A DNA stretch of 64,000 bases from Odoribacter splanchnicus DSM 20712 (lineage in GTDB: Bacteria > Bacteroidota > Bacteroidia > Bacteroidales > Marinifilaceae), in the NCBI RefSeq assembly GCF_000190535.1, contig NC_015160.1, positions 3,534,001-3,598,000 of the forward strand, in the 5' to 3' direction. The position numbers were made by a program, and so were the translations under genes. Every line of letters begins with the position of its first letter. The first letter of the stretch is position 1. The notes below the pieces were generated by a model that was not told the origin of the DNA, ran no database searches, and saw only the letters and a program-made list of their open reading frames with translations. Of this stretch, positions 25,309 to 50,089 are shown piece by piece.

Positions 25309-25346
25309 AAAAGGTCCAATTAAATCAGAATTTAATTGGACCTTTT
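25309..25346. promoter_or_regulatory. Candidate recombination site A, embedded in a strong terminator hairpin
   Basis: Contains aattaaatcagaatttaatt (25318-25337), the reverse complement of the sites at 26235 and 50070. It sits within a perfect 17-bp hairpin: 25309-25325 pairs with 25330-25346 around the 4-nt loop caga. On the minus strand the stem is followed by T6, so it is a good intrinsic terminator for anything transcribed leftward from the invertase segment. The asymmetric centre gives the site an orientation opposite to B and C, the layout needed for inversion. That it is a crossover site is inferred from its repeats and the adjacent serine invertase. Confidence 0.65.
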
Positions 25347-25507
25347 AAGGCAAATTATTTCACTGAATTTATTTAAACTAAACTCAGGGTAAATATAGTT
25401 TACTACTTGATTTCTATATGATTATCTTTTAGAAAAGGAACCGATTAGGAACGCTCCGCGGTCCTCAGTGTCATATTTCTACTGAAGAACCGTCTTATTT
25501 TCAGCCA

Positions 25508-25538
25508 CAAAAATAGCCTTTTATTTTTCCACTACAAA
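25508..25538 (-). promoter_or_regulatory. Outward-facing promoter inside the candidate invertible segment
   Basis: Minus-strand TTTG (25538-25535), 19-bp spacer, TATTTTTG (25515-25508): a full match to the Bacteroidales consensus. Transcription would begin near 25500 and run left, away from the invertase and both polysaccharide loci, meeting the site A hairpin after about 160-190 nt. It lies downstream of the invertase coding region, so it does not drive that gene. After A-B or A-C inversion it would point at locus 1 or locus 2. Confidence 0.7.
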
Positions 25539-25554
25539 GGAAAAAAATGCCTTT

Positions 25555-26171
25555 TCAGTTTTTAGAGAAAGATCTCAGGGGAATATTTTCCAGTTGAAGG
25601 TACTTATAAAGTGTGCTTTTACTCTTAATTTCAATTTGTTGGCATATTTGTTTTACAGCAAATCCTTTTTGATACAAGAGAGCTGCTTTTTTACTTTTTG
25701 CTGGGTTTCCGGATTCAAGCCCTGAGGTCTTCCGAATTTTTTTCCTCTTTTCCGGGCTGCTTCCCGTCCTTCACGAGTCCTTTCCATAATCACATTCCGT
25801 TCGAATTCTGCCAGAGCCGCAAAAATATGCATCGTAAATTTCCCCATATAATCGGTCGTATCAATATTATCCTTGACCGAACGAATCCGTATGTTTTTAC
25901 TTTCCAGCTCCGAACATATCCGGACAATTTCAGACAGGCTACGGGCCAAACGATCTAATTTATAAACAACTAATACATCACCTTCACGTAATAGTGAAAG
26001 GCAATGTTCCAGTTCCGGACGTTTTTTTACCCCGGAAATTTTCTCGCAAAATATTTGTACGCAATCCTGACGCTGTAACACATCCAATTGCATATCCAGA
26101 TTCTGGTCACGCGTACTCACCCTGGCGTAACCGATGATCCTTCCCTGGAACTCTTTGTTAATAATCGTCAT
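25555..26171 (-). CDS. Serine-family DNA invertase (Hin/Mpi-like), frameshifted
   Basis: The zero frame from ATG 26171 encodes 172 residues and stops at 25653. It has the resolvase catalytic domain: GYARVSTRDQNLDMQLDVL with nucleophile Ser19, VVYKLDRLARS, and the long E-helix region FAALAEFERNVIMERTREGREAARKRG. Just after NPETQQKVKK the message reads GTA AAA AAG; moving to the -1 frame at A AAA AAG restores AALLYQKGFAVKQICQQIEI and on to a stop at 25555. That restores the C-terminal helix-turn-helix and a family-length protein of about 205 residues. The zero-frame product lacks the DNA-binding tail. It could be programmed frameshifting, A-tract phase variation or a decayed gene. The position before a capsule locus and between inverted sites suggests control of polysaccharide expression, as with Mpi in Bacteroides fragilis. 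Confidence 0.85.
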
Positions 26172-26198
26172 TTCCTCCCAATAATAAAAAACTTTTCA

Positions 26199-26230
26199 CA
26201 AAAATATAAATGTTATCCGAATTGTTAAAA
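26199..26230 (-). promoter_or_regulatory. Probable promoter of the invertase gene
   Basis: TATTTTTG on the minus strand (26206-26199) matches TAnnTTTG, with TTTT (26230-26227) 20 bp upstream as a weak -33 box. Transcription would start about 20 nt before the invertase ATG. The -33 region lies only a few bases from site B, so recombination there leaves the promoter intact but changes its upstream flank. Confidence 0.5.
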
Positions 26231-26234
26231 GTCC

Positions 26235-26254
26235 AATTAAATTCTGATTTAATT
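26235..26254. promoter_or_regulatory. Candidate recombination site B, before locus 1
   Basis: aattaaattctgatttaatt, an imperfect palindrome with asymmetric centre tctg. It is inverted relative to site A, with which it shares 24 bases (gtcc plus the core) and a ttaaaa flank, and is in the same orientation as site C at 50070. It lies 34 bp before the chosen flippase start. No TAnnTTTG box occurs between it and that start. Confidence 0.6.
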
Positions 26255-26287
26255 AGATTAATATGTTTTATTAATTATTTGATTGTA

Positions 26288-27718
26288 TTGTCATCGCTAA
26301 AACAAAAAACGCTTTCAGGAGTCCTTTGGAGTTGTGTTGAACGCTTTTCGGTTCAAGGTATTCAGTTTGTCATTATGGTCATAATGGCTAGAATACTTTT
26401 GCCTTCTGATTATGGGATGATCGGAATGCTCGCCATATTTATCGCCATAGCACAAACGTTGATAGACAGTGGTTTCTCCAATGCTTTAATTCAGAAAAAA
26501 GATAGATCAGAAATTGATTATTCTACTGTATTTTATTTTAATATAGCTGTAGGAATTGTCCTTTACTTTATTCTGTTTTTTTCCTCTCCTTTAATAGCGA
26601 GATTTTATAACACGCCCGAACTGACAGGATTAACACGTGTATTAGCCTTGAATCTGTTTATAAATTCTTTAGCTGTCGTTCAACGGGCTATATTGTCTAT
26701 AAAAATAGATTTTAAGACTCAGGCAAAGGCTTCTTTTAGTGCTGCGATAATATCAGGCATCGTCGGCATAGTCATGGCATATACCGGTTTCGGAGTATGG
26801 TCACTTGCTGTTCAGACTGTTTTAAATGCTTTCGTGAATACAGTTTTATTATGGATTTTTTCAAAGTGGATTCCTTTGAAAGTTTTTTCTTTTGAATCTT
26901 TCAAAAAACTATTCACTTTTGGTTCCAAACTATTGGCTTCCGGATTATTAGATACAATTTACCGGAATATTTATACTATCGTTATCGGTAAAAAATTTGC
27001 TTCCACTGATTTGGGTTATTTTACCCGGGCAGATCAGTTTGCACAATTCCCATCCTCTAATTTAACCGGAATTATTCAACGCGTAACTTTCCCTGTATTA
27101 AGTGAAATTCAGGATGATGATGAACGTTTGGCACACGCTTACCGAAAATTTTTAAGATTGTCTGCGTACATGATTTTTCCGTTAATGACAGGATTAGCAG
27201 CTGTTGCATATCCATTCATTAATTGCTTATTGACGGAAAAGTGGACCTTTACAGCTTTATTGCTACAAATTCTGTGTTTCTCTTATATGTGGTATCCCGT
27301 TCATGCCATTAATCTGAATTTGTTACAAGTGAAAGGACGTTCAGACCTATTTCTGAAATTGGAGATTTATAAAAAAATAATGGGAATAGTTGTGTTAGGT
27401 GTTACCATTCCTTTGGGATTGGTGGCAATGTGTTGGGGAACCATTATCGCTTCTTTATTTAGCTTAGTGATAAATACCTATTATACGGGGAAACTGATAC
27501 ACGTCGGTTTATTTAAGCAATTACGGGATTTAAGTCCGGCATTATTCTATTCTTTGACGATGGCGATTGTCGTTTATCTGACTACTTGTTTGTTTGCCGA
27601 TCAATTGCTACAGCTTTTAATTGGTATTATTACAGGGATAATTTACTATCTTCTTGTTTCTTATGCGACAAAATCCCAGGACCTTAAAGAATTTCTTTTA
27701 CTGATAAAAAGGAAATAA
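26288..27718 (+). CDS. Polysaccharide flippase (Wzx-like), locus 1
   Basis: A membrane protein of about 476 residues with 12-14 helices, of the MATE/MVF polysaccharide-transporter superfamily. The N terminus SSLKQKTLSGVLWSCVERFSVQGIQFVIMVIMARIL and FSNALIQKKDRSEIDYSTVFYFN are typical of Bacteroidota Wzx proteins. It should move lipid-linked repeat units across the inner membrane. An ATG lies upstream at 26210, but it would translate through site B; the TTG at 26288 matches where the family begins. It is the first gene of locus 1, 6 bp before the aminotransferase gene. Confidence 0.88.
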   Translation: MSSLKQKTLSGVLWSCVERFSVQGIQFVIMVIMARILLPSDYGMIGMLAIFIAIAQTLIDSGFSNALIQKKDRSEIDYSTVFYFNIAVGIVLYFILFFSSPLIARFYNTPELTGLTRVLALNLFINSLAVVQRAILSIKIDFKTQAKASFSAAIISGIVGIVMAYTGFGVWSLAVQTVLNAFVNTVLLWIFSKWIPLKVFSFESFKKLFTFGSKLLASGLLDTIYRNIYTIVIGKKFASTDLGYFTRADQFAQFPSSNLTGIIQRVTFPVLSEIQDDDERLAHAYRKFLRLSAYMIFPLMTGLAAVAYPFINCLLTEKWTFTALLLQILCFSYMWYPVHAINLNLLQVKGRSDLFLKLEIYKKIMGIVVLGVTIPLGLVAMCWGTIIASLFSLVINTYYTGKLIHVGLFKQLRDLSPALFYSLTMAIVVYLTTCLFADQLLQLLIGIITGIIYYLLVSYATKSQDLKEFLLLIKRK

Positions 27719-27724
27719 TCTATC

Positions 27725-28837
27725 ATGGATAATGAAAAGCAAATCACGGTAACAAGTCCTTTGTTACCGCCTTTGGACGAATTGATACCCTGCTTGCGTG
27801 ACATTTGGGAGAGGAAATGGTTGACGAATAACGGGCATTACCATCAGCTGTTGGAAAAGGCTTTGGCTGAATATTTGAAAGTGCCTTATATCAGTTTGTT
27901 CACCAACGGGACATTGCCTTTGATTACGGCATTGCAGGCGTTGCGGATTACCGGGGAAGTGATAACGACACCTTACAGTTTTGTGGCAACAACACATTCG
28001 CTGTGGTGGAATGGGATTAAGCCGGTATTTGTAGATATAGAACCGGAGACATGCAATATCGATCCGGAGAAAATCGAGGCGGCGATTACGCCAAAAACGA
28101 CGGCAATAATGCCTGTTCATGTATATGGAAAACCTTGTGATACTGTTCGGATACAAGAGATTGCAGACAAATATGGTTTGAAGGTGATTTATGATGCAGC
28201 TCATGCGTTTGGTGTGGAAGTAAATGGAAACTCCGTATTGGAAGCCGGTGATATGTCGACGTTGAGTTTTCATGCGACGAAGGTGTACAACACGGTGGAA
28301 GGGGGAGCATTGGTGTGTCATGACGGGCAGACAAAACAACGAATAGATTATTTGAAGAATTTCGGTTTTGCAGGAGAAACGACCGTGATTGCTCCGGGTA
28401 TCAACGGGAAGATGGACGAGGTGCGGGCTGCGTACGGACTGCTGAATTTGAAACAGGTGGATGCGGCCATTGAAGCACGGAGACAGGTGGCGGTGAGGTA
28501 TCGGGAGGAATTGAAAGATGTGCCGGGTATCCGGGTAATGGAGGATATGCCGGGTGTGCGGCATAATTACTCTTATTTTCCGATTTTCGTGAATGCAGAA
28601 CGGTATGGGATGACGCGGGATGAATTGTATACGCGGATGAAGGAAAGGAATGTCTTGGGGCGGCGCTATTTTTACCCGTTGATCAGTGAGTTCTCGACTT
28701 ACCGCGGTCTGGAATCCGCGAGGCCGGAGAATCTGCCTGTAGCGCACAAGGTGGCGGACAGCGTGATTTGTTTGCCGATGTATAGCGGTTTGGAGCGGGA
28801 AGAGGCGGAAAGAGTGTTGGATTGTATAGTAAAATGA
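27725..28837 (+). CDS. DegT/DnrJ/EryC1 sugar aminotransferase
   Basis: A 370-residue PLP enzyme. TNGTLPLITALQAL begins the large domain, VIYDAAHAFGVEVNG holds the PLP-contacting Asp, and the Schiff-base lysine is in LSFHATKVYNTVEGGALV. GKMDEVRAAYGLLNLKQVD is the substrate-side motif. Such enzymes aminate 3- or 4-keto-6-deoxy nucleotide sugars; the closest pattern I know is the dTDP-4-amino-4,6-dideoxyhexose (VioA/FdtB) group. dTDP-glucose made by rfbA/rfbB downstream could supply the substrate. The amino group made here is the likely target of the acyl chain built by the module at 31,582-37,850. DNA is richer in G+C than the following genes. Confidence 0.92.
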   Translation: MDNEKQITVTSPLLPPLDELIPCLRDIWERKWLTNNGHYHQLLEKALAEYLKVPYISLFTNGTLPLITALQALRITGEVITTPYSFVATTHSLWWNGIKPVFVDIEPETCNIDPEKIEAAITPKTTAIMPVHVYGKPCDTVRIQEIADKYGLKVIYDAAHAFGVEVNGNSVLEAGDMSTLSFHATKVYNTVEGGALVCHDGQTKQRIDYLKNFGFAGETTVIAPGINGKMDEVRAAYGLLNLKQVDAAIEARRQVAVRYREELKDVPGIRVMEDMPGVRHNYSYFPIFVNAERYGMTRDELYTRMKERNVLGRRYFYPLISEFSTYRGLESARPENLPVAHKVADSVICLPMYSGLEREEAERVLDCIVK

Positions 28838-30051
28838 TGGGTGGGATGAAACAGAAAAAATTATTGTTGTTGGGAGGACTACGTTATTTACTCCCGGTGA
28901 TAGAGGCTGCCCATAAATTGGGGTATTATGTGATAACGTGTGATTATATTCCCGGTAACATTGCGCATAAGTATTCGGATGAGTATCATAATGTGAGTAT
29001 TATAGACAAAGAGGCTGTTTTGGCGTTAGCCCGGGAGTTGGAAATAGATGGAATTATGTCGTTTGCGGTAGACCCTGGAGTAGTGACGGCGGCTTATGTA
29101 CAGGATCAGATGGGATTGCCGGGGAATCCTTATGAGTCAGTGAAGATATTGCAGAATAAAGACCGGTTCCGTCGTTTTTTGTCGGAGTATGGTTTTAATG
29201 TGCCTTGGGCATTTGGTTTCTCTTCTGTGGGGGATACTTTGTTAAAATCCGGTGAGTTTACTTATCCTTTAATTGTAAAACCGACAGATTCCGCAGGGAG
29301 TAAAGGTGTGACAAGAGTGGACAGGGCGGAGGATCTGGAGGATGCGGTAAAGTATGCTTTGAAGCATTCTATTTCGGAAAGGGTGATTGTGGAGGAGTTT
29401 ATAGAAAAGGAAGGTTGTTCATCGGATACGGACTGTTTTTCCGTAGATGGGGAGTTGAAGTTTGTTTCTTTTTCGGCGCAACGCTTCGATGAAAAGGCGG
29501 CAAATCCTTACACACCTTCTGCATTTAGTTGGCCCTCGACTATGACGAAAGAACAGGAGGCGGAGTTAACTTTCGAGTTGCAGCGGTTGTTGTATTTGTT
29601 AGGGATGCGGACATCGATTTATAATGTGGAAACTCGTATAGGGAAGAATGGGAAAACTTACATTATGGAGGTTTCACCACGTGGAGGAGGCAACCGTTTG
29701 GCGGAAATGTTACGTTATGCGACAGGGGTAGATTTGATTACCAATGCGGTGAGGGCTGCGGTAGGTGAAGAGGTTGTCGGTGTGGAACAGAAACCTTATC
29801 AAGGATACTGGGCGGAGGTGGTACTGCATGCAGATAAGGATGGATGTTTCAACGGATTGGAAATGGATGATGAGTTCCGAAATAAGCATGTGAAAGAAGT
29901 TGATTTGTGGGTAGAAAAAGGGGATTCCGTTTCTGCTTTCAGGGGGGCGAATGACGCGATAGGGACGTTGGTGGTGAGGTTTGATACGGATGATGAATTA
30001 CAGGAATTTATAAAGAGGGGAAAAGACAAGTATCAAATTGTGCTTAAATGA
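28834..30051 (+). CDS. ATP-grasp family ligase
   Basis: A 405-residue protein with a pre-ATP-grasp Rossmann-like start (KLLLLGGLRYLLPVIEAAHKLGYYVITCDY), a central segment LIVKPTDSAGSKGVTRV for nucleotide binding, and the metal-binding IMEVSPRGGGNRLAEML. The family joins a carboxylate to an amine or similar group using ATP, so it could attach an amino acid to a sugar or carrier. Start choice: ATG at 28834 overlaps the previous stop as ATGA; ATG at 28846 (MKQKKLLLLGG) is equally plausible. It overlaps the next gene by 4 bp. Confidence 0.82.
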   Translation: MMGGMKQKKLLLLGGLRYLLPVIEAAHKLGYYVITCDYIPGNIAHKYSDEYHNVSIIDKEAVLALARELEIDGIMSFAVDPGVVTAAYVQDQMGLPGNPYESVKILQNKDRFRRFLSEYGFNVPWAFGFSSVGDTLLKSGEFTYPLIVKPTDSAGSKGVTRVDRAEDLEDAVKYALKHSISERVIVEEFIEKEGCSSDTDCFSVDGELKFVSFSAQRFDEKAANPYTPSAFSWPSTMTKEQEAELTFELQRLLYLLGMRTSIYNVETRIGKNGKTYIMEVSPRGGGNRLAEMLRYATGVDLITNAVRAAVGEEVVGVEQKPYQGYWAEVVLHADKDGCFNGLEMDDEFRNKHVKEVDLWVEKGDSVSAFRGANDAIGTLVVRFDTDDELQEFIKRGKDKYQIVLK

Positions 30052-30998
30052 AAGAAATAGGTGGCTATTTTGAATTAGAATTGCATAAGGGTGGACATTA
30101 TCATCCTGATGCTTTGCATTTAAATACGGGACGGAATTGCTTTGAGTATATTTTGCGGGCCAAAGGATATAAAAAAGTTTATATTCCTTATTACACGTGT
30201 GAAGTGATGTTGGAACCTTTACGGAAATGTGGGGTAAAATGGGAGTTTTATCATATTAACGAGGATTTCGAACCATTGACTTCGTACTCTTTGGCTACTG
30301 ATGAGGCATTTTTATATACGAATTATTGGGGATTAAAACAAGCGTGTGTAAAGAGATCGGCAGAGCGTTATGGAAAACAATTAATTGTAGATAATGCACA
30401 AGCTTTTTTTGCTTCTCCGATAGAGGGTGTTGATACCTTTTATTCGGCACGCAAGTTTTTTGGAGTACCGGATGGGGCCTATCTTTATACAGACAAGTTT
30501 TTAAATGTAGAGTTAGAACAGGATGTCTCCTGTCAACGTTGTGAACATTTATTAAGGCGGATTGATGAAGGGGCCGAAAGAGGATATGAGGCTTTTAGGC
30601 GGAATGATGACGCATTGAATAATCAACCTATTAAAAAGATGTCCCAATTGACGGAATCGATTTTAATGGGTGTGGATTATAAAATTGTCGTGGAACAGAG
30701 AAGAGGGAATTTCAACTATTTGCATTCTTTTTTGGGGAAAAGAAATAGATTGAATTTGGAAACATTGAAAGATGAAAAAGTACCAATGATTTATCCTTTC
30801 TTTGTGCAAAATATTGATATTAGAAAAAAATTGATTGCTAATAAGATTTTTGTAGCAACTTATTGGCCAAATGTTTTTTCCTGGACAGTTGCAGACTCCG
30901 TTGAACATGGATTTGCAGATTACTTAATACCGTTACCGATTGATCAGCGTTATGGTGAAGATGACATAGAACGTATATTAAAAATAATAAATAATTAG
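30048..30998 (+). CDS. Divergent DegT-like PLP-dependent protein
   Basis: A 316-residue protein with the aminotransferase fold pattern: LNTGRNCFEYILRAKG at the start, VYIPYYTCEVMLEPLRKCGVKWEFYHI, LIVDNAQAFFASPIEGVDTFYSARKFFGVPDGAYLYT. The aligned PLP aspartate is in VDNAQ and the lysine in SARKFFG. It is shorter than usual DegT enzymes and lacks a clear C-terminal small domain motif. Function is unknown; sugar amination or dehydration is possible. The start overlaps the ATP-grasp stop by 4 bp. From here on the DNA becomes strongly AT-rich. Confidence 0.65.
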   Translation: MKEIGGYFELELHKGGHYHPDALHLNTGRNCFEYILRAKGYKKVYIPYYTCEVMLEPLRKCGVKWEFYHINEDFEPLTSYSLATDEAFLYTNYWGLKQACVKRSAERYGKQLIVDNAQAFFASPIEGVDTFYSARKFFGVPDGAYLYTDKFLNVELEQDVSCQRCEHLLRRIDEGAERGYEAFRRNDDALNNQPIKKMSQLTESILMGVDYKIVVEQRRGNFNYLHSFLGKRNRLNLETLKDEKVPMIYPFFVQNIDIRKKLIANKIFVATYWPNVFSWTVADSVEHGFADYLIPLPIDQRYGEDDIERILKIINN

Positions 30999-31589
30999 AT
31001 GTCCATAAAATTTAGAGAGTTTGAAAATAGGGATATAGATTTTGTTTATCACTGTAAAAATGACGAAAATCTTTCTCGGTTAATAGTTGGAGAATTTAAG
31101 CCCATATCAAAATCTGAAGCAATCCAATGGGTTGAAGGATGTAAAGGGCATCATGATGATTACATTTTTTGGGCAATTTGTAAGGATGATGAATCTGAGG
31201 ATATAATAGGGTGGGCAAGTTTGGCAAATATTAATAAAGTGAATAAAAGTGCTTCAACTCATAGCATTGTTATCGGAGATAGGGATTACAATGATGGTTT
31301 TACTTGGATTGAGACTGTTCGCTTTATGTTTGAATATGCGTTTGAAACACTTAAACTGAATCGTCTCTATGGGGTTTCGTTGGTAGGACATCCTATGAGT
31401 AACATAATAGGAGATTTGATGTTTATGGCAAAGGAAGGAGTACTTAGACAGGCGATATTTAAAAATGGAAGATTTTATGATCTCTTGTATAATGCAATCC
31501 TTAGAGATGAATATTATATACATAAAGAAAATGGAGATTATGAGATGAGAAAGATTATTAAAAGACTAAGAAATTTACGACATGGATAA
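30999..31589 (+). CDS. GNAT family acetyltransferase (RimJ/RimL-like)
   Basis: A 196-residue protein with a GNAT pattern: SIKFREFENRDIDFVYHCKN, then IIGWASLANINKVNKSASTHSIVIGD and the late helix WIETVRFMFEYAFETLKLNRLYGVSL. It probably transfers an acyl group from CoA, or from a carrier protein, onto an amine. In this context it is a candidate for acylating the amino sugar. It begins directly after the preceding stop and overlaps the malonyltransferase gene by 8 bp. Confidence 0.78.
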   Translation: MSIKFREFENRDIDFVYHCKNDENLSRLIVGEFKPISKSEAIQWVEGCKGHHDDYIFWAICKDDESEDIIGWASLANINKVNKSASTHSIVIGDRDYNDGFTWIETVRFMFEYAFETLKLNRLYGVSLVGHPMSNIIGDLMFMAKEGVLRQAIFKNGRFYDLLYNAILRDEYYIHKENGDYEMRKIIKRLRNLRHG

Positions 31590-32511
31590 TGCTTTTATTT
31601 TTTCAGGACAAGGAAGTCAAAAAGAAGGTATGGGGAAGTCGTTATATCTCAACTCTCAGGTTGCTAGGAAAATATATGAAGATGCGGATAATATTTTAGG
31701 TGAAAGATTCTCTGATTTTATATTTAACGCATCCGAGGAAGTATTAATGGATACAAGATATACGCAGCCGGCCATATTTATCTATGAAGTTGCTGCTGCG
31801 TTGGGACAATCAGATTTTAAACCTGATTGTGTGGCCGGTCATTCTTTGGGCGAATATGCCGCACTTGTTGTTTCTGGGACTCTTGATTTTGAGGAAACAC
31901 TTAAGTTTGTATGGAGAAGAGGACAAATTTTCCATGAAGCATTTCAAAAGCATCCAAGTGCAATGGGGGCTATTATAGGTATCCCTGATGATAAAGTTCT
32001 TTCGGTTCTGCAAACTGTTGGGAATGAGGATGGGAATAGCCTTTATATAGCAAATTATAATGGACCGGGGCAATTGGTTATAACTGGTGACAGAACCTCT
32101 ATAAAAAAAGCATGCAAGATTTTTAAAGATATGGGAGCTAAAAGAGCTGTACTTCTTCCTATGAAAGGAGTTGGACATTCTCCTAATTCTAAAGAGGAGG
32201 GTGAAATTCTTGAAAAAGAAATAATGAAACTAAGTTTTAAAACACCAAATATTCCAATATATCAGGATGTTGATGCCTTACCGCATAAAGACCCCGTTAA
32301 AATTAAAGAGAATCAAATAAAACTTATGACGAGTCCAGTGCAATGGACGAATATAACTCGGAATATGGTTTCAAATGGAGTTCGTAACTTTTATGAAGTA
32401 GGTACAGACGATACTTTACAGAAAATTGTTTCGCGAATGTATCCTGATTTATTAGTGACATCTATTTGGACATGCAATGACTATAGAAATATAAAACCAT
32501 ATAATTTATAA
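31582..32511 (+). CDS. Malonyl-CoA:ACP acyltransferase (FabD-like)
   Basis: A 309-residue acyltransferase. FIFSGQGSQKEGMGKSLY is the FabD start; the nucleophile serine is in CVAGHSLGEYAALVVSG and the catalytic histidine region is MKGVGHSP. It is a second FabD-like enzyme by context, lying in the polysaccharide locus rather than with fatty-acid genes, so it is inferred to load malonyl onto one of the two nearby carrier proteins. It ends 2 bp before the carrier-protein gene at 32514. DNA is AT-rich like its neighbours. Confidence 0.9.
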   Translation: MDNAFIFSGQGSQKEGMGKSLYLNSQVARKIYEDADNILGERFSDFIFNASEEVLMDTRYTQPAIFIYEVAAALGQSDFKPDCVAGHSLGEYAALVVSGTLDFEETLKFVWRRGQIFHEAFQKHPSAMGAIIGIPDDKVLSVLQTVGNEDGNSLYIANYNGPGQLVITGDRTSIKKACKIFKDMGAKRAVLLPMKGVGHSPNSKEEGEILEKEIMKLSFKTPNIPIYQDVDALPHKDPVKIKENQIKLMTSPVQWTNITRNMVSNGVRNFYEVGTDDTLQKIVSRMYPDLLVTSIWTCNDYRNIKPYNL

Positions 32512-32513
32512 TT

Positions 32514-32741
32514 ATGAATATAGATAATTTTATTGAAAATTTTGCAGGAGAATTTGAGGAAACTCCTATAGAGAACTTTTCGATGGATACTGAGTTCAAA
32601 AGCCTTGAAGAGTGGAATTCATTAACAGCCCTTTCTATCATTTCGATGATAGATGATAATTATGATAAAACTATTACAGGGGCTGATTTACGGAAATGTG
32701 TAACAATTAAAGAGCTTTTTGATCTTGTTTCCTCAAAATGA
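32514..32741 (+). CDS. Acyl carrier protein of the acyl module (first copy)
   Basis: A 75-residue acidic protein. The phosphopantetheine site is the serine in EEWNSLTALSIISMIDD (Ser36), in place of the DSL of housekeeping ACP. Four helices can be drawn around it. It lies 2 bp after the malonyltransferase and 3 bp before the ketoreductase, so it is the likely malonyl carrier. It differs clearly from acpP (6295) and from the second carrier at 35940. Confidence 0.85.
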   Translation: MNIDNFIENFAGEFEETPIENFSMDTEFKSLEEWNSLTALSIISMIDDNYDKTITGADLRKCVTIKELFDLVSSK

Positions 32742-32744
32742 TAG

Positions 32745-33503: not shown

Positions 33504-33569
33504 AGAGTCCTAGTATATGGAATCGACTAAGTAGGTCGTGTTATAAAATAATTCTACAATATTAATAAA

Positions 33570-35093: not shown

Positions 35094-35128
35094 AGATATC
35101 GGAATAGGGGTTTACATAACAACGTGCA

Positions 35129-35926: not shown

Positions 35927-35939
35927 CAAATCAGAAAAA

Positions 35940-36167: not shown

Positions 36168-36169
36168 AA

Positions 36170-38884: not shown

Positions 38885-38922
38885 AGTTTGTCTAGTAGAA
38901 GGCAATAATAGTTTAATGTTTT

Positions 38923-40897: not shown

Positions 40898-40932
40898 ATA
40901 TCAAAGTTTGTAAATTAAATTTGAAATCACAT

Positions 40933-41745: not shown

Positions 41746-42733
41746 AAGGATTGTTTTAATTGGCGGTTCTGGATTTGTTGGCACACGTCTGATTGATTTA
41801 TTTCAGCAAAAGGATTATGAAATACAAAATATAGACAAACAGCAAAGTCATTTTTTCCCGAATATAACAGCAATCGGGGATGTGAGGGATAAAGCAAAGT
41901 TGATGCAATTGTTACATGGAGCAACGGTAGTTGTATTGTTAGCGGCAGAACATCGGGATGATGTTACTCCCATTACAAAATATTATGACGTGAATGTCGG
42001 GGGAATGCAGAATGTGTTGGCTGCAATGGAAGCTAATGATGTGAAACACATTGTATTTACTTCTTCAGTAGCTGTCTACGGTTTGAATAAAGAGAATCCC
42101 AATGAAGAACATCTGAAGGATCCGTTTAATCACTATGGAAAAAGTAAGTGGTTGGCGGAAATGGAACTTGAAAAATGGTATCGGACTCATCCCGATTGGA
42201 ATATCAATATTTTACGGCCTACAGTTATTTTTGGAGAAAGGAACCGGGGGAATGTTTATAATCTGTTGAAACAGATTGCCGGAGGAAAATTTGTCATGGT
42301 GGGAAAAGGGGAAAATAAAAAATCGATGGCTTATGTCGGGAATATTGTGGCATTTATCAAGTTTTTGATTGAGAATAAGCAGGAAGGATATAATGTCTAT
42401 AATTATATCGATAAGCCTGATTTTACAATGAATGAGCTGGTAGGACATGTGAGCCAGGTATTGAATAAACATATTCCCATGACGCATTTTCCTTATTGGT
42501 TAGGAATGCTGGGAGGATATTGTTTTGATGTATTGGCTTGGATGTTAAGAAAGAAGTTAACCGTTAGTTCTGTCCGTGTGAAGAAGTTTTGTGCAACAAC
42601 CCAATTCGATGCATCGAAGGTTGGATTATCCGGTTTTAAAGCCCCCTATACTTTAGAAGAAGGGCTTGCACGGACTTTGGAATTCGAATTTGTTCATCCC
42701 AGACAAGATGATATAACGTTTAAAAGCGAGTAG
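41738..42733 (+). CDS. NAD-dependent sugar epimerase/dehydratase
   Basis: A 331-residue extended SDR. The cofactor loop is IGGSGFVGTRLIDLF; the catalytic Tyr-x3-Lys is in HYGKSKWLAEMELEKWY; TSSVAVYG precedes it. Such enzymes epimerise, dehydrate or reduce nucleotide sugars; substrate not inferable. It overlaps the glycosyltransferase stop. A promoter for the following toxin-antitoxin pair begins right at its stop codon. Confidence 0.88.
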   Translation: MSKRIVLIGGSGFVGTRLIDLFQQKDYEIQNIDKQQSHFFPNITAIGDVRDKAKLMQLLHGATVVVLLAAEHRDDVTPITKYYDVNVGGMQNVLAAMEANDVKHIVFTSSVAVYGLNKENPNEEHLKDPFNHYGKSKWLAEMELEKWYRTHPDWNINILRPTVIFGERNRGNVYNLLKQIAGGKFVMVGKGENKKSMAYVGNIVAFIKFLIENKQEGYNVYNYIDKPDFTMNELVGHVSQVLNKHIPMTHFPYWLGMLGGYCFDVLAWMLRKKLTVSSVRVKKFCATTQFDASKVGLSGFKAPYTLEEGLARTLEFEFVHPRQDDITFKSE

Positions 42734-42763
42734 TTTGTAAAAGTGAAAAATTTCTTATATTTG
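42734..42763 (+). promoter_or_regulatory. Promoter of the first nucleotidyltransferase/HEPN pair
   Basis: TTTG at 42734-42737, 18-bp spacer, TATATTTG at 42756-42763: a near-ideal Bacteroidales promoter. Transcription would start around 42770, about 13 nt before the MntA-like ATG. It means the pair need not depend on the capsule operon. Confidence 0.75.
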
Positions 42764-42782
42764 TTACAAAAATAAGTTGTTT

Positions 42783-43073
42783 ATGCGTTTGACTCAGGGG
42801 GAGATAGATACGATTGTCAGGATTGCAAGGGAGATTTATGGCTGGGGAGTAGAGGTGTTTTTATTTGGTTCGCGTACGGATGACAGTAAGCGGGGTGGGG
42901 ATATTGATTTGTTGGTTAGAAGCACGGGAGAGAAAAAAGGGATCCTGGAACGGGTGCGAATGGTGACCAGGTTAAAACTGGCATTGGGGGACAGGAAGAT
43001 AGATGTGATCGGGGATTACGAGGATAATGCGGTTGTGCAGGAGGCGTTGTTACATGGAATACGATTGATATGA
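42783..43073 (+). CDS. MntA-like minimal nucleotidyltransferase (antitoxin)
   Basis: A 96-residue protein of the minimal nucleotidyltransferase family. The catalytic motif is FLFGSRTDDSKRGGDIDLLV, that is GS followed by DxD, with a third acid in KIDVIGDY. MntA proteins polyadenylylate the partner HEPN toxin and silence it. It overlaps the HEPN gene by 4 bp, as is usual. The ATG at 42783 is used; the TTG two codons earlier is less likely. It has its own promoter and sits between the epimerase and rfbA. Confidence 0.88.
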   Translation: MRLTQGEIDTIVRIAREIYGWGVEVFLFGSRTDDSKRGGDIDLLVRSTGEKKGILERVRMVTRLKLALGDRKIDVIGDYEDNAVVQEALLHGIRLI

Positions 43074-43543
43074 CAGATAAGCGGCAGGAATTGAAAGATT
43101 GGTTGCTTCGGGCATTTGAAATCTGTGATAAACATATAACCCGAATAGAGGAGGCTTTATGTGGATTGAAACCGTATTTCCCATTGGATGAGGAGAAGTA
43201 TTTGAATCTGAATAGCGAGGCGGTGATGCGTTTGGATCAGTTTATATTTCGCTTTTCCAGGTTGCAAGACGTTATTGGGGCAAAGATATTCAGATATGTA
43301 CTGGCGTGGTTGTATGAGGAGGAAGAGACAATGTCCATGCGGGATGTTCTGGATCGTTTGGAACGCCTGGGGGTGATTGATAGTGTTGAAAGTTGGGGCT
43401 ATATGCGGGAGTTGAGAAATACGATAGCACATGATTATCCGTTAGATACTCAAGAGGTGGTGCTTTCATTAAATGAATTGGTCGGAAGTACGGAAACGTT
43501 GAAAGTTGTATATGAACGTTTAAGAGGAAGGTTTTTTGCTTGA
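43070..43543 (+). CDS. HepT-like HEPN toxin
   Basis: A 157-residue helical protein. The C-terminal half has the RX4HXY motif as RNTIAHDY in WGYMRELRNTIAHDYPLD, matching the HepT ribonuclease active site and its AMPylated tyrosine. Such toxins cleave RNA when the MntA partner is lost. It follows the antitoxin with a 4-bp overlap. It may stabilise this part of the polysaccharide locus or act in phage defence. Confidence 0.87.
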   Translation: MTDKRQELKDWLLRAFEICDKHITRIEEALCGLKPYFPLDEEKYLNLNSEAVMRLDQFIFRFSRLQDVIGAKIFRYVLAWLYEEEETMSMRDVLDRLERLGVIDSVESWGYMRELRNTIAHDYPLDTQEVVLSLNELVGSTETLKVVYERLRGRFFA

Positions 43544-43619
43544 TATATTAAATGGACGATGGATTGGAGGGGGAGAAAATCTTTTCGATAGAAATACATA
43601 ATCACAAAATTTTTTATTT

Positions 43620-44516
43620 ATGAAAGGTATAGTGCTTGCCGGAGGTTCCGGTACGCGGCTTTATCCTATTACGAAAGGGGTGAGCAAGCAATTGCTACCC
43701 ATTTTCGATAAGCCGATGATTTATTATCCGGTGTCGGTGCTGATGTTGGCAGGGATTCGGGAGATATTGATTATTTCAACCCCTCAGGATTTACCCGGAT
43801 TCCGGCGGTTGCTGGGGGACGGATCGGATTACGGGGTGCGTTTCGAGTATGCGGAGCAGCCGAGTCCGGACGGGCTGGCACAGGCGTTTATCATCGGGGA
43901 GAAATTTATTGGGGAAGATTCGGCTTGTCTGGTACTGGGCGATAATATATTTTATGGTCAGAGTTTTACACGGATGCTGCTGGAGGCGGTGAGGACGGCA
44001 GAGGAAGAACAAAAGGCGACGGTTTTCGGTTATTGGGTGAATGACCCGGAACGGTATGGTGTGGCGGAGTTCGACAAGGAAGGGAATGTGTTGAGTATCG
44101 AAGAGAAACCTGCACAGCCGAAATCCAATTATGCAGTGGTGGGGTTGTATTTTTATCCCAATAAGGTGGTGGATGTGGCGAAGCATATCAAGCCGTCGGC
44201 ACGCGGAGAACTGGAGATTACAACGGTGAACCAGCGTTTCCTGCAGGATCAGGAGTTGAAAGTGCAGTTGCTGGGCCGGGGATTTGCGTGGCTGGATACC
44301 GGAACGCATGATTCATTGAGTGAGGCGTCGACTTTTGTGGAGGTGATTGAAAAACGGCAGGGGTTGAAACTTGCCTGTCTGGAAGGGATTGCTTTGCGGC
44401 AAGGCTGGATTACACCGGAGAAAATGCGGGAACTGGCACAACCTATGATTAAAAATCAATATGGACAATATCTTCTGAAATTGGCGGCTGAATTTGCCAG
44501 AAAGGAGAAAAAATAA
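43620..44516 (+). CDS. rfbA: Glucose-1-phosphate thymidylyltransferase
   Basis: A 298-residue nucleotidyltransferase. The sugar-nucleotide motif is [37 protein letters not shown]; the metal acid is in [11 protein letters not shown]. It makes dTDP-glucose from dTTP and glucose-1-phosphate, the first step to dTDP-rhamnose and dTDP-4-amino-sugars. It lies between two toxin-antitoxin pairs and its 3' end holds the promoter of the second. The G+C content is visibly higher than in the 31-41 kb block, like the other rfb genes. Confidence 0.97.
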
Positions 44517-44522
44517 AAATCG

Positions 44523-44554
44523 TTTGGGCTTTGCCCGGGAATTTGCTATTTTTG
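44523..44554 (+). promoter_or_regulatory. Promoter of the second nucleotidyltransferase/HEPN pair
   Basis: TTTG at 44523-44526, 20-bp spacer, TATTTTTG at 44547-44554. The start would be near 44561, about 10 nt before the ATG at 44572. It begins directly after the rfbA stop. Confidence 0.72.
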
Positions 44555-44571
44555 CTAAAAAGAATCAGAAT

Positions 44572-44892
44572 ATGAAAGTGGCTTATAAAACAATGCTGGA
44601 GTTGATCAAGCAGAATGTGCACGAGGTGGATGCTACGGCACAGGTTTGGTTGTATGGGTCACGGGTACGGGGAGAAGCCCGGGAGGATTCTGATTGGGAT
44701 ATCCTGGTGCTTTCGCAGAAGGATACATTGTCTTTTAAAGAAGAAGAGCGTTTCATGGATCATATTTGTGAGTTGATGGTGAAGACCGGGCAGGTCATTC
44801 AGTTGTTTGCCTACGGAATGAAAGACTGGCATTCGCGTCATGCCATTACTCCTTTTTATCAAAGTGTACAATCTGAGGCTGTTTTGTTATGA
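44572..44892 (+). CDS. Nucleotidyltransferase-domain antitoxin (second pair)
   Basis: A 106-residue protein of the minimal nucleotidyltransferase type. The active motif is WLYGSRVRGEAREDSDWDILVLS (GS, then DxD). The frame is open back into rfbA, but ATG 44572 lies just after a good promoter and starts MKVAYKTMLEL. It overlaps the HEPN gene by 4 bp. It is predicted to neutralise that partner. Confidence 0.85.
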   Translation: MKVAYKTMLELIKQNVHEVDATAQVWLYGSRVRGEAREDSDWDILVLSQKDTLSFKEEERFMDHICELMVKTGQVIQLFAYGMKDWHSRHAITPFYQSVQSEAVLL

Positions 44893-45287
44893 CAGAATGT
44901 GACGATAGTATGCTTGCTTATGTCCGTTATAGACTGGAAAAATCTCTGGAGGTTTATAAGGCAGCATGCGTATTGTATGATGCCGCACAGTGGAATTCTG
45001 TGATAAACCGTTTATACTATGCTTGTTTTTATTCTGCTTCCGCTTTATTGCTTTATAAACATATTATTGCAAAATCCCATTCCGGCGTAATTGGACAATT
45101 TTCAGAAAATATGGTAAGAACCGGGATTTTTTCTGTAGATGAATTTCGCGTGTATGCGAAATTATTGAATTGGCGTTCTAAAGGTGACTATAATGATTTT
45201 TTCGATTTTTCGAAAGAGGATGTTGATTCAATGATGAGGCCAACTAAGCATTTTATTGATAAGGTAGTAGCTCTGATAGAACTTTAA
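44889..45287 (+). CDS. HEPN-domain protein (UPF0332-like, second pair)
   Basis: A 132-residue helical protein. The segment NSVINRLYYACFYSASALLLYKHI and the later SHSGVIGQFSENMV are the UPF0332/HEPN pattern; RSKGDYNDFFDFSKEDV follows. A textbook RX4-6H is not obvious, so toxicity is less certain than for the first pair. It follows its nucleotidyltransferase by a 4-bp overlap and precedes rfbC by 64 bp. Confidence 0.82.
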   Translation: MTECDDSMLAYVRYRLEKSLEVYKAACVLYDAAQWNSVINRLYYACFYSASALLLYKHIIAKSHSGVIGQFSENMVRTGIFSVDEFRVYAKLLNWRSKGDYNDFFDFSKEDVDSMMRPTKHFIDKVVALIEL

Positions 45288-45351
45288 AGGTATTATTCCC
45301 TGGCAGGTTGTTTTTTCTTGAAACACATTGTGTGATATTATCAATTAAAAT

Positions 45352-45924
45352 ATGGAACTGATTGAAACCTGTATACCGGGTGTTGTCATCGTGCAACCCC
45401 GTATTTTCGGTGATGAACGCGGCTATTTTTTTGAGTCGTTTTCACAGCGGGATTTCGAACGGCAGGTATGTAAAACCGTTTTTGTCCAGGATAATGAGTC
45501 GAAATCGTGTTACGGTGTGGTGAGGGGGTTGCATTTCCAGAAACCTCCGTATGCCCAATCCAAACTGGTGCGGGTGGTGAAAGGTCGTGTACTGGATGTA
45601 GCGGTGGATATCCGGAAGGGATCACCTACGTTCGGGAAGTATGTTTCCGTTGAATTAACGGAGGAGAATAAACGGCAGTTTTTCATTCCGCGGGGATTTG
45701 CCCATGGGTTTGCGGTATTGAGTACGGAAGCTGTTTTCCAGTATAAATGCGATAATTTTTATGCACCGGAAAGTGAGGGGGCTTTGGCCTGGGACGATCC
45801 GGATTTGGGAATCGACTGGCGGATTCCGGCCGCTAAGGTGATCCTTTCTGAAAAGGACAGACACCATCCATGCCTGAAAGATGCCTGTGATTGGTTTGAC
45901 TATAATGTGAATCTCTATGAATAG
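45352..45924 (+). CDS. rfbC: dTDP-4-dehydrorhamnose 3,5-epimerase
   Basis: A 190-residue cupin enzyme. It starts MELIETCIPGVVIVQPRIFGDERGYFFESF; the catalytic histidine is in VVRGLHFQKPPYAQSKLVRVVKGRVLDVAVDIR, and the second motif is FIPRGFAHGFAVLS. It makes dTDP-4-keto-L-rhamnose. Length is normal. It overlaps the start of the broken rfbD by 8 bp, the usual coupled order. Confidence 0.97.
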   Translation: MELIETCIPGVVIVQPRIFGDERGYFFESFSQRDFERQVCKTVFVQDNESKSCYGVVRGLHFQKPPYAQSKLVRVVKGRVLDVAVDIRKGSPTFGKYVSVELTEENKRQFFIPRGFAHGFAVLSTEAVFQYKCDNFYAPESEGALAWDDPDLGIDWRIPAAKVILSEKDRHHPCLKDACDWFDYNVNLYE

Positions 45925-46388
45925 GATATTGGTGACCGGAGCCAACGGACAGTTGGGGAATGAGATGAGGCGGCTGGCTGTATTCTGCTTTCGGGAATAA
46001 TTTTGTAAAGACCATACAGCGTTTGACAGTGGAAAGGGAGCAGTTGAATGTCGTATTTGACCAGGTGGGAACGCCGACTTATGCCGCCGACCTGGCCGCT
46101 TTGATCGTTCATGTCCTTGAAACAGGAAAATACAGGCAACATCAGGGAATTTACCATTTTTCCAATGAGGGCGTGTGTTCGTGGTATGATTTTGCTAAAG
46201 AGATCGTTGCTTTATCGGGAAATACTTGTGACATCCGGCCGTGCCATTCGGATGAGTTTCCGGGTAAAGTAAAACGTCCGGCTTTCTCAGTGCTGGATAA
46301 AACAAAAGTGAAACGGGATTTTGATTGTACCATTCCTTACTGGAAGGATTCACTTGTGAAATGTATAAATGAATTAAAACGGAAATAA
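45917..46388 (+). pseudogene. rfbD: dTDP-4-dehydrorhamnose reductase, internally deleted
   Basis: The 5' end encodes MNRILVTGANGQLGNEMRRLA, the cofactor loop of RmlD, then runs into a stop at 45998-46000. In another frame WLYSAFGNNFVKTI begins at 45975 and continues through TPTYAADLAALIVHVLETG, IYHFSNEGVCSWYDFAKEIV and the C terminus to 46388. A normal RmlD has about 285 residues; here about 130 codons between the N-terminal loop and WLYS are missing, including the catalytic Tyr-x3-Lys. The joint is near 45968-45980, in ggctgg-rich sequence, and is out of frame. An internal start at 46023 could make a 121-residue fragment, but it would not be an enzyme. Confidence 0.92.
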
Positions 46389-47452
46389 TGGATTTTAAAA
46401 GGAATATATTGATTACCGGTGGTGCCGGTTTTATCGGCTCGCATGTAGTGCGTCTGTTTGTGACGAAATATCCGGAATATCATATCATTAATCTGGATAA
46501 GCTGACTTATGCGGGGAATCTGGCCAATCTGGCAGACATCGAACAGCAGCCGAATTATACTTTTGTAAAAGCAGATATCTGTGATTTTGAAAAGATACTG
46601 GAATTGTTCCGGCAGCACAGTATCGACGGAGTGATCCATCTGGCAGCGGAAAGCCATGTAGACCGTTCGATCAAAGATCCGTTTACCTTTGCTCAGACGA
46701 ATGTGATGGGGACCCTGTCTTTGTTGCAAGCCGCTAAAGTAAGCTGGGACGGACAATATGACGGGAAACGTTTCTATCATATCTCTACCGATGAGGTGTA
46801 CGGGGCCCTGAAGTTTGACGGCACCTTTTTTACGGAGACCACGAAATATGATCCGCATTCCCCCTACTCGGCTTCGAAAGCTTCTTCCGATCATTTCGTG
46901 AGAGCCTTTCATGATACCTTCGGTATGCCTACCCTTGTAACCAATTGCAGTAATAACTACGGTCCTTACCAATTCCCGGAAAAACTAATCCCTTTGTTTA
47001 TCAATAATATCCGTCACAATAAACCTTTGCCCGTTTACGGAAAGGGGGAAAATGTGCGTGACTGGTTGTATGTGGTGGATCATGCCCGGGCCATCGATCT
47101 TATTTTCCATAATGGAAAGGTTGCCGAAACATATAATATCGGTGGCTTTAACGAATGGAAAAATATCGATTTGATCCGGGTTCTGATCAAGACGGTAGAT
47201 CGCTTACTGGGACGCCCTGAAGGAGCATCGGAGAAGCTGATCACATACGTGACAGACCGGGCCGGACATGATTTGCGCTATGCTATCGATTCGACGAAAC
47301 TGAAAAATGAATTGGGCTGGGAACCTTCTTTACAGTTCGAGGAGGGTATAGAGAAAACGGTGAAATGGTATCTGGATAATCAGGAGTGGCTGGATCAGGT
47401 GACGAGCGGAGATTATCAGGGATACTATGAAAGGATGTATGGCAATAGATAG
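46388..47452 (+). CDS. rfbB: dTDP-glucose 4,6-dehydratase
   Basis: A 354-residue extended SDR. The NAD loop is ILITGGAGFIGSHVVRLFV; the motif HISTDEVYGAL carries Thr-Asp-Glu; the catalytic Tyr-x3-Lys is in SPYSASKASSDHFVRAF; NNYGPYQFPEKLIPLFI follows. It converts dTDP-glucose to the 4-keto-6-deoxy intermediate used by both rhamnose and 4-amino-sugar paths. The start shares a base with the rfbD remnant and the end overlaps upxY by 14 bp. Confidence 0.97.
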   Translation: MDFKRNILITGGAGFIGSHVVRLFVTKYPEYHIINLDKLTYAGNLANLADIEQQPNYTFVKADICDFEKILELFRQHSIDGVIHLAAESHVDRSIKDPFTFAQTNVMGTLSLLQAAKVSWDGQYDGKRFYHISTDEVYGALKFDGTFFTETTKYDPHSPYSASKASSDHFVRAFHDTFGMPTLVTNCSNNYGPYQFPEKLIPLFINNIRHNKPLPVYGKGENVRDWLYVVDHARAIDLIFHNGKVAETYNIGGFNEWKNIDLIRVLIKTVDRLLGRPEGASEKLITYVTDRAGHDLRYAIDSTKLKNELGWEPSLQFEEGIEKTVKWYLDNQEWLDQVTSGDYQGYYERMYGNR

Positions 47453-47969
47453 GCAAAAAACGGAAACGGTTCATTGGCACGCTGTCTTCACCGCCTCCCG
47501 TGCGGAGAAGAAGGTGCGTGACCGGTTGGAGGAGCTGGGTGTGGAGTGTTTTTTGCCGGTACAGACGGTGTTGAGGCAGTGGACGTACCGGAAGTCGCGG
47601 GTGGTGGTGCCGGTGATTGCGGGGTTGGTTTTTGTGCGGGTAGGCCGTCAGGAGCAGGTGAAGGTGCTGCAGACGAAAGGGGTGGTGGCTTTTCTGAGGC
47701 TGAAGGGAGAGGCGGGGGCTGCTGTGATTCCGGATAAGCAGATGGAGGACTTCCGTTTTTTGTTGGATTTCTCTGAGGAAGCGGTGGAAATGACCAATGA
47801 AAATATAAAGGCCGGTGATTTGGTCAGGGTGGTGAAAGGTTCGCTGAGGGGGATGGAAGGTGAACTGATCAGACACAAGGGAGTAACGAAGGTGTTGGTA
47901 CGTATTGATATGCTGGGGTGTGCCATGGTTAATATTCCGGCGAGCTTTGTAGAAAAATTAAATAAGTAA
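47439..47969 (+). CDS. upxY: UpxY-type transcription antiterminator (NusG paralogue)
   Basis: A 176-residue NusG-like protein. The N-terminal NGN domain starts VHWHAVFTASRAEKKVRDRLEELGVECFLPVQ; a C-terminal KOW-type segment is IKAGDLVRVVKGSLRGMEGELIRHKG. UpxY proteins prevent premature termination in the leader of their own capsule operon in Bacteroides. Here the gene is the last but one of locus 1 instead of the first, overlapping rfbB. The ATG 47439 is used. It may act on locus 1 or, in trans, on locus 2, whose leader begins 2.2 kb away. Confidence 0.9.
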   Translation: MAIDRQKTETVHWHAVFTASRAEKKVRDRLEELGVECFLPVQTVLRQWTYRKSRVVVPVIAGLVFVRVGRQEQVKVLQTKGVVAFLRLKGEAGAAVIPDKQMEDFRFLLDFSEEAVEMTNENIKAGDLVRVVKGSLRGMEGELIRHKGVTKVLVRIDMLGCAMVNIPASFVEKLNK

Positions 47970-47978
47970 TGATCGGCA

Positions 47979-48488
47979 ATGAAAGAGTTTTCTGTTTGTT
48001 ATGATCGTTTTTGCCTGGGGAATTATACCCTGGTTTGTGATGGTTCGGATACCGTTCAGGCGACCGCGGATCTGGGGGCTTTCGAGATGTATGTCCTGGG
48101 CATGTGGAACGATGGGCTGGTGGTGACGATGAAGGCATACGATGAGGTTTGTGGTGAAAATCAGTTTGTCCTGCTTGTACCGGACGGCAGCGAGCAGTTG
48201 ATGAGTTTCTCCCCGGGTAGAGGTTTTGTGGTCCGGCCATACCGGGCGGCACGTCAAGGCCGTTTTGCCTATTTGCTTGATTTCTTATGCGGTTTGAAAT
48301 ACAAAGGTTATCAGGGTTATGAGGAGTATGACGAGGAAGAAAAGATGATTTTCGGTATTGTGCGGGTCGGTGAAAAATCCCTGACCTATGGAGGAAAAAA
48401 TTTGCAGGAAGTGAAATCTGATTTCATTCAAAAAATCGAACAAGAAACTGCGTCAAGGGATAATAAAATAACAAATTCAGAAATTTAG
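47979..48488 (+). CDS. Hypothetical protein downstream of upxY
   Basis: A 169-residue protein of unknown family. It has two parts: residues 1-95 are beta-rich (CYDRFCLGNYTLVCDG, FVLLVPDGSEQLMSFSPGRGFVV) and residues 115-160 are charged and helical (YGGKNLQEVKSDFIQKIEQE). Its place 9 bp after upxY is where UpxZ, an inhibitor of foreign UpxY proteins, lies in Bacteroides fragilis, but I cannot see family similarity. The tail is slightly reminiscent of HicB-like antitoxins. Cotranscription with upxY is likely. Confidence 0.65.
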   Translation: MKEFSVCYDRFCLGNYTLVCDGSDTVQATADLGAFEMYVLGMWNDGLVVTMKAYDEVCGENQFVLLVPDGSEQLMSFSPGRGFVVRPYRAARQGRFAYLLDFLCGLKYKGYQGYEEYDEEEKMIFGIVRVGEKSLTYGGKNLQEVKSDFIQKIEQETASRDNKITNSEI

Positions 48489-48526
48489 AAATTGAAACCG
48501 ATTGATTAAAAGAATTATTACGGTTT

Positions 48527-48584
48527 CAAAAGTGACAAAGGTTACAGTGGTTCAGTCTGACTTCTGTAACCTTTGTCACTTTTG
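48527..48584. terminator. Strong hairpin after locus 1
   Basis: A perfect 21-bp inverted repeat: 48527-48547 (caaaagtgacaaaggttaca and one more base) and its complement at 48564-48584, with a 16-nt loop. It lies 39 bp after the last locus 1 gene and should terminate the operon from the plus strand. Confidence 0.75.
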
Positions 48585-48626
48585 TAATTCTGCTAACCGA
48601 TAGAGGTGCCCCTAATTCACTTCCAA

Positions 48627-48738
48627 CGAGGGTGTCCAAAAAGTATTTGGCACCCTCGATTTATTCGTATCCCTATTGGAGACTGAAATCAAATATCCGA
48701 TTCTACAAGGGGGTATTTTGCCTTTTTGGACACCCTCG
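48627..48738. repeat. Nested inverted repeats with a shared arm
   Basis: cgagggtgtccaaaaag at 48627-48643 has a perfect 17-bp complement at 48722-48738 and also an 8-bp complement at 48651-48658 (caccctcg). The same arm can form either a short local hairpin or a long-range stem. It lies between locus 1 and the convergent ATPase gene, so it may be a bidirectional terminator. Confidence 0.55.
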
Positions 48739-48744
48739 TTTTGT

Positions 48745-49896
48745 TTATAACCGGAAACCGGTTCCGTAAACCGTTTTTATCCACAAAGCAAAAAGACGGT
48801 CTGTGAGAGAATACGTCTTATTGATTTCTGTGATAAAATCTTTATCCAGCAACTTCTTTATAGCCGATTGTACAGCGCTGGCCGAAGCCAGCCGATGACG
48901 TTTAATAAAAGCAGAAGAAGTGACTTGACGGGCTTCTCCATCTTTTGCAATGGCGTACAACACTTCTTTCTGACGTTCCGGTATATGGGAAAGGATTTCC
49001 CGGAATATGGTGTCGTTGTCACTTAGTAGCCTATCGATACTTTGTTGAAGAATACTAATCGTACACTCCTTATTGTTTTCAGTATCTGCAAAACCTTCAT
49101 TAAAAGTTTTTTGAATATAATAAGTATGCCCCTGAAACAAGGCGTATACCCGTTTGGCCGTGTCTTCGGAAATAGATTTTCCGAATTTATTGAAATTACC
49201 GACAATGAAGGGAATATATTTCTCGTCGGGGATAGCACTTAGTTCGAGCATATCTGCACTATGGTAAAATGGACGTGAAGCAGATACGAACATATTTTGC
49301 ATCATATGCCGTTCACTTCCTGCAAAAATGAAATGGCAATTATTTATTTTTTGAATATGTGTCCGCAACAAAGCCTCGATATTCTTTTCCGGATATTTAG
49401 CGATCTGCTGAAATTCGTCGATGGCAATAATACAGGGTTTATCGGCTTTGGCAAGATAAACGAAAATTTCATCCAACGTATATTCGGGTCGGTCGATATC
49501 CCCTAACTCCAAACTAAAAGTCGGGGTATTCGACAGCGGATCGAAACCGAATTTCCCGCTAATTGATTTCAGTGTCTGCATAAAAAGTTGAGTCATTCTT
49601 TTACTCCGGGGCAGCAACGTTTCATAAATCTCTTTCCCCAGCGTATAGGTAAACTCCCTCAGACTGGAAGTATGTAAGATGTCGATGAAAAAAGTGTAGT
49701 ACGTTTTTTTCCATTCCGGTTTTTCATAACAAAACTGAATTAATCCCGTCTTTCCCATCCTTCTCGGGGAAATAATCACCAAATTATTCCCGTTATCCAA
49801 CGACCGGATCAAACGGGCCGATTCTTCTTCCCGATCACAAAAATAGGCCGGATCGATTTTCCCCGTCACAATAAAAGGGTTCACTATTTTCCTCAT
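48745..49896 (-). CDS. ATP-binding protein of the archaeal-ATPase (AAA) type
   Basis: A 383-residue protein. NPFIVTGKIDPAYFCDREEE begins the family; Walker A is ISPRRMGKTGLIQF; Walker B is CIIAIDEFQQIAKYPE; the sensor segment CHFIFAGSERHMMQNMF follows. The C-terminal third contains a winged-helix region (ASAVQSAIKKLLDKDFITEINKTYSL). These AAA proteins are very common in Bacteroidota genomes; their function is unclear, though a link with mobile or defence DNA is often proposed. The ATG at 49896 fits a promoter at 49912-49943; an upstream TTG is rejected. It lies on the opposite strand between the two polysaccharide loci. Confidence 0.85.
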   Translation of the reverse strand: MRKIVNPFIVTGKIDPAYFCDREEESARLIRSLDNGNNLVIISPRRMGKTGLIQFCYEKPEWKKTYYTFFIDILHTSSLREFTYTLGKEIYETLLPRSKRMTQLFMQTLKSISGKFGFDPLSNTPTFSLELGDIDRPEYTLDEIFVYLAKADKPCIIAIDEFQQIAKYPEKNIEALLRTHIQKINNCHFIFAGSERHMMQNMFVSASRPFYHSADMLELSAIPDEKYIPFIVGNFNKFGKSISEDTAKRVYALFQGHTYYIQKTFNEGFADTENNKECTISILQQSIDRLLSDNDTIFREILSHIPERQKEVLYAIAKDGEARQVTSSAFIKRHRLASASAVQSAIKKLLDKDFITEINKTYSLTDRLFALWIKTVYGTGFRL

Positions 49897-49911
49897 AACT
49901 CCATTTTTATA

Positions 49912-49943
49912 CAAATATAATTATATTATCCGAATTATGCAAA
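49912..49943 (-). promoter_or_regulatory. Promoter of the ATPase gene
   Basis: Minus-strand TTTG (49943-49940), 20-bp spacer, TATATTTG (49919-49912), a full consensus. The start would be near 49905, giving a very short leader to ATG 49896. Confidence 0.7.
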
Positions 49944-49993
49944 TCACATAATATTCTATGTAAAAATTGCATTCCAATCGTTTTTTATCTCAT

Positions 49994-50043
49994 ATTAAAC
50001 AAAACTCCCTGATCCGATAACAGATCAGGGAGTTTTGTTTAAT
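49994..50043. terminator. Strong hairpin just before site C and locus 2
   Basis: A perfect 21-bp inverted repeat: 49994-50014 and its complement at 50023-50043, loop of 8 nt. The stem contains ccctgatc and is flanked by A/T runs, so it is an intrinsic-type terminator on either strand. No gene end is near on the plus strand. It may insulate locus 2 from incoming transcription. Confidence 0.65.
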
Positions 50044-50069
50044 ATCCTATATGTAATGGGAACTGGTTT

Positions 50070-50089
50070 AATTAAATTCTGATTTAATT
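50070..50089. promoter_or_regulatory. Candidate recombination site C, before locus 2
   Basis: aattaaattctgatttaatt, identical to site B and in the same orientation, inverted relative to site A. It lies 78 bp before the first gene of locus 2. The flanks differ from A and B, but it can also form a hairpin of about 13 pairs followed by a T-tract. No TAnnTTTG box is seen between it and the gene at 50168. Confidence 0.6.

Follow-up and report, generated by a model that had tools for sequence, protein, structure and literature searches.

Several known systems vary the bacterial surface by inverting DNA. In Salmonella, the invertase Hin is encoded within the segment that it flips, together with an outward promoter, and acts at two sites to control one operon, fljBA; in the nested inversions of Campylobacter fetus, small and large, one promoter is common to the sapA surface genes, which encode S-layer proteins and have long homologous repeats. 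Seven of the eight capsule loci of Bacteroides fragilis have their own invertible promoter, with one global invertase, and upxY and upxZ are often the first genes of a capsule locus, as far as the available text describes them (PMC12632263). The vpma genes of Mycoplasma agalactiae share a unique promoter, which inversion at sites upstream of each gene carries from one to another (PMC2268961), and a preprint on Eggerthella lenta describes inversions associated with short inverted repeats that change how three capsule clusters are placed with respect to a LuxR-like regulator and/or loaP (PMC13174815). Inversion sites in an Odoribacter splanchnicus genome have been reported, the accessible text giving no locus detail (PMC5903667), and the literature searched, with subscription papers outside its scope, held no description of the locus considered here. 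This locus lies in a stretch of 64,000 nucleotides of O. splanchnicus DSM 20712 (NC_015160.1, positions 3,534,001 to 3,598,000; hereafter the window), in which a promoter-bearing segment, S, is enclosed by inverted copies (A and B) of a 20-bp sequence, with a third copy (C) before a second polysaccharide locus (Table 1).

We propose, with a probability of roughly 0.3, that these parts form a three-position selector, in which a promoter-leader cassette carrying its own invertase is parked or placed at either of two polysaccharide operons, giving exclusive coats or neither. In the parked state, the S promoter would read into a terminator built into site A and neither operon would be on; the short inversion A x B (0.9 kb) would bring the promoter to locus 1, and the nested long inversion A x C (25 kb) would bring it to locus 2. 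A -1 ribosomal frameshift would possibly be needed to reach the DNA-binding domain of the invertase, keeping the amount of active enzyme low. The original prediction had been a three-site inversion switch for two surface-polysaccharide loci, and we judge it partly supported.

The sites themselves are well defined. All three 20-bp cores are identical and occur on the strands and at the positions that had been predicted; three matches at up to three mismatches were reached in none of 100 dinucleotide-shuffled versions of the window. Further copies had been suggested as something to look for genome-wide: in the whole genome (4,392,288 bp, single contig), A, B, and C are the sole copies at zero to two mismatches, and allowing three adds one place, as does a reversed-pattern control. 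The inverted repeat formed by A and B is 94% identical over 31 nt. The central dinucleotide is CT in all six sites compared, with A, B, and C identical there, and these sites are near-palindromic with an asymmetric centre, as had been claimed and as is typical of Hin/Gin-type sites. Site C ends exactly the predicted 78 nt before the start of wecC (50168), and the end of B lies 33 nt, not 34, ahead of wzx, whose probable start codon is TTG (26288). Two copies of the core with one mismatch each, mutually inverted and 8.3 kb apart, also occur in another genus of the family (L010, G038:C262), probably by chance.

Bacteroidota-type promoters follow a recognisable consensus, for which we searched both strands of the window with the pattern TTG-N19-23-TAnnTTTG. 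Of 10 matches, one falls in S (25508-25537, minus strand, towards A), while none lies between B and wzx or, in the forward direction, within 49915-50167. By this pattern, the S promoter would be the only recognisable promoter for both polysaccharide clusters. Its position between inverted repeats adjoining a polysaccharide operon is that of an invertible capsule promoter of Bacteroidales, and a lone promoter combined with a site upstream of every alternative gene set is also, by sequence pattern alone, the layout of a single-promoter multi-site selector.

Downstream of the promoter lies a conserved leader, ATGACACTGAGGANCGCGNAGCG, found once each in five of the eight genomes of the genus: that of this window (G000) and the relatives G042, G045, G046, and G047. 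Among the 56 family genomes searched, the other 51, including all 48 outside the genus, give no match to it at up to three mismatches, although absence from a draft genome is weak evidence. In all five leader-bearing genomes, a strict promoter match (spacer 18-23) starts 61-70 nt upstream. The leader also contains CGCG(A/G)AGCG in all five (window 25452-25474, minus strand; L084-L087), which could form a mini-hairpin of three pairs and, by analogy with RfaH/ops, might be an ops-like UpxY target, which we offer as an idea only.

Comparison with these relatives suggests that S has changed orientation. The leader precedes wecC in G042 and G045, and in G047 it has topB on one side and a Polysacc_synt_2 gene on the other; in G046 a wzx follows it, and UpxY-like and topB genes flank it on the opposite side. 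DNA similarity of S to genus relatives is confined to the promoter-leader part (71% in G046, E 6e-18; 73% in G042, E 8e-8), and its recombinase part matches none of them at E 0.001. In G046, the promoter and leader are followed by a decayed copy of the site (TTCCAGTTAAATTCTAATTT...) and then by wzx and aminotransferase, with topB on the other side; the G046 wzx is 64% identical to that of locus 1, its aminotransferase 80%, and its topB matches at 86-87%. In O. splanchnicus, the promoter-leader-site order is instead directed at the topB side and wzx lies behind B. Between the two species, S is flipped relative to shared neighbours, a pattern that fits a reversible switch and a single past inversion alike.

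Site A and its flanks (25309-25346) form a 17-bp hairpin without mismatches, and on the minus strand a T run comes after it, which becomes a U run when read from the S promoter; we propose that A is a terminator-like parking position. Predicted local fold energies are -19.8 kcal/mol for A as it now stands and -5.3 and -9.1 for the modelled A x B and A x C junctions; computed over all 90 nt, they are -21.2, -12.8, and -18.4. In these predictions, parked and switched states therefore contrast clearly at locus 1, whereas for locus 2 the contrast is doubtful. Folding also bears on whether the 20-mer is a recombination site at all: it could instead be a leader hairpin, either a terminator or an antitermination target, for example of UpxY. 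The strong folds of A (-20.7 kcal/mol, z -6.1) and C (-14.6, z -2.4) and the encoding of UpxY at this locus speak for such a role, which we nevertheless regard as very improbable.

Somewhat less remote, and still unlikely in our view, is a two-site switch, in which A x B flips the promoter of locus 1 in the ordinary way and C is an unused copy brought with locus 2. Hin-type switches normally have two sites, the first arm of C differs, and the rml-upxY module is partly duplicated at 95-98% identity, so duplication does occur here. A single movable promoter, as in the three-position selector, would account for the lack of a recognisable promoter at locus 2.

The serine invertase gene predicted between A and B needs one correction. 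Its catalytic domain bears the prediction out: among solved structures, two chains named DNA-invertase match best (134 and 131 bits), followed by gamma-delta resolvase (97 bits), placing it nearest to invertases, as expected of the Hin/Gin type. Unlike in Hin/Gin-type enzymes, the C-terminal helix-turn-helix is not in frame: it was recognised from its similarity to a relative (36% over 50 residues) and is encoded in the -1 frame. The protein scores below the curated cut-offs of all six NCBIfam models that it matched, among them the Mpi family (NF009949, 70.5 bits against a cut-off of 272, for a query without the out-of-frame domain). A slippery heptamer, A_AAA_AAG, stands in phase at the frame break, starting at 25692 (minus strand), and does not occur in phase in the 14,884 codons of 42 other open reading frames of the window, chosen by hand. 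This heptamer does not show programmed frameshifting because a simple base loss in the A run would leave it too; a -1 programmed frameshift and a homopolymer indel are both possible. The break sits in an A run, and 454 reads are prone to homopolymer errors. According to the accessible text of the genome paper, part of the reads were 454, and the error rate after Illumina correction was below 1 in 100,000 (PMC3111987). The genome has three more serine recombinase genes (G000:3330738, 3287881, 2025776), 31-36% identical to that of S, one of which could act on A, B, and C in trans. Matches to the S recombinase also occur, at least one per genome, in the seven other members of the genus.

Table 1. 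Features of the proposed selector and its surroundings (window coordinates).
Feature	Position	Strand	Remarks
Segment S, 897 bp	25338..26234		Between inverted A and B; holds promoter, leader, recombinase
Bacteroidota-type promoter TTTG-N19-TATTTTTG	25508..25538	-	Directed towards A; no other strict match in S
Conserved single-copy polysaccharide leader ATGACACTGAGGANCGCGNAGCG	25452..25474	-	Downstream of S promoter
Site A core	25318..25337	-	Exact 20-mer copy; proposed crossover site
Site B core	26235..26254	+	Exact 20-mer copy; before locus 1
Site C core	50070..50089	+	Exact 20-mer copy; before locus 2
Serine recombinase catalytic domain, 172-aa frame	25653..26171	-	Pfam Resolvase, 147 bits
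Recombinase helix-turn-helix part, -1 frame	25555..25691	-	Out of frame in this assembly
Probable recombinase promoter	26199..26230	-	One substitution off promoter pattern
Locus 1, polysaccharide operon	26288..48488	+	wzx, aminotransferase, glycosyltransferases, rml genes; ends with upxY and gene at upxZ place
UpxY family antiterminator	47427..47969	+	177 bits, cut-off 100
Terminator-like hairpin, 25 pairs with one mismatch (G-T allowed)	48528..48583		Behind locus 1
Terminator-like hairpin, 25 pairs with one mismatch (G-T allowed)	49992..50045		Just before C
Locus 2, polysaccharide operon	50168..64000, past window	+	Starts with wecC, Epimerase_2 gene (wecB)

Judged from the families that the scanned genes matched, loci 1 and 2 look like polysaccharide operons. 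UpxY scores above its curated cut-off, as in UpxY-controlled capsule operons, and two of the genome's three such matches are in these loci. Locus 2 runs beyond the window to a second upxY and the next gene (L012:5467-6495), and both loci close with the same kinds of gene. These are rml-type genes, upxY, whose product is identical over 180 residues, and then a gene at the upxZ place with no NCBIfam or Pfam match in either locus; upxY is at the ends of both loci and not first. Pieces of the rmlA/rmlC/upxY module are repeated in the same direction at 95-98% DNA identity (window ~43620-48488 and L012:4197-6495), and homologous recombination there could delete or duplicate locus 2. The two hairpins between the loci may isolate locus 2 from upstream read-through. 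Between the upxZ-position gene and C lies an AAA-type ATPase gene (48745-49914, minus strand) with its own strict promoter (49912-49942). Locus 1 also contains two small nucleotidyltransferase/HEPN-type gene pairs (42777-43543 and 44494-45287); one is NTP_transf_2 with a weak HepT-like partner, and the partner of the HEPN gene (44889-45287) was judged by eye.

If the selector operates as proposed, one promoter in a human gut commensal would pick between two surface polysaccharides, and exclusivity would lie in the DNA itself, not in cross-repression between loci. The 25-kb state could escape inversion finders that are tuned to short segments with two sites.

Each known system shares some of these features. 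Like Hin/fljBA, this locus would have an invertase inside the segment that it flips and an outward promoter, unlike the two sites and one operon of Hin; like sapA, it would share a promoter among surface genes, without the long homologous repeats and S-layer genes of that system. The capsule inversions of E. lenta also involve short inverted repeats and rearranged capsule clusters, but the inversion spans 2 Mb, and the accessible text of the preprint reports no recombinase gene found beside the breakpoints and describes no parked promoter cassette. As in the Mpi-controlled promoters of B. fragilis, so far as the available account goes, inverted repeats surround the promoter of a polysaccharide operon in the company of a DNA invertase and UpxY genes; unlike there, one promoter would serve two loci, the recombinase gene lies within the segment and scores below the Mpi cut-off, and upxY stands at the locus ends. 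The vpma system, as described in its available text, likewise relocates one promoter by inversion among sites preceding alternative genes, but it does so with the tyrosine-type recombinase Xer1 and single lipoprotein genes, whereas the present locus would combine a serine recombinase with whole polysaccharide operons and add a parking site resembling a terminator.
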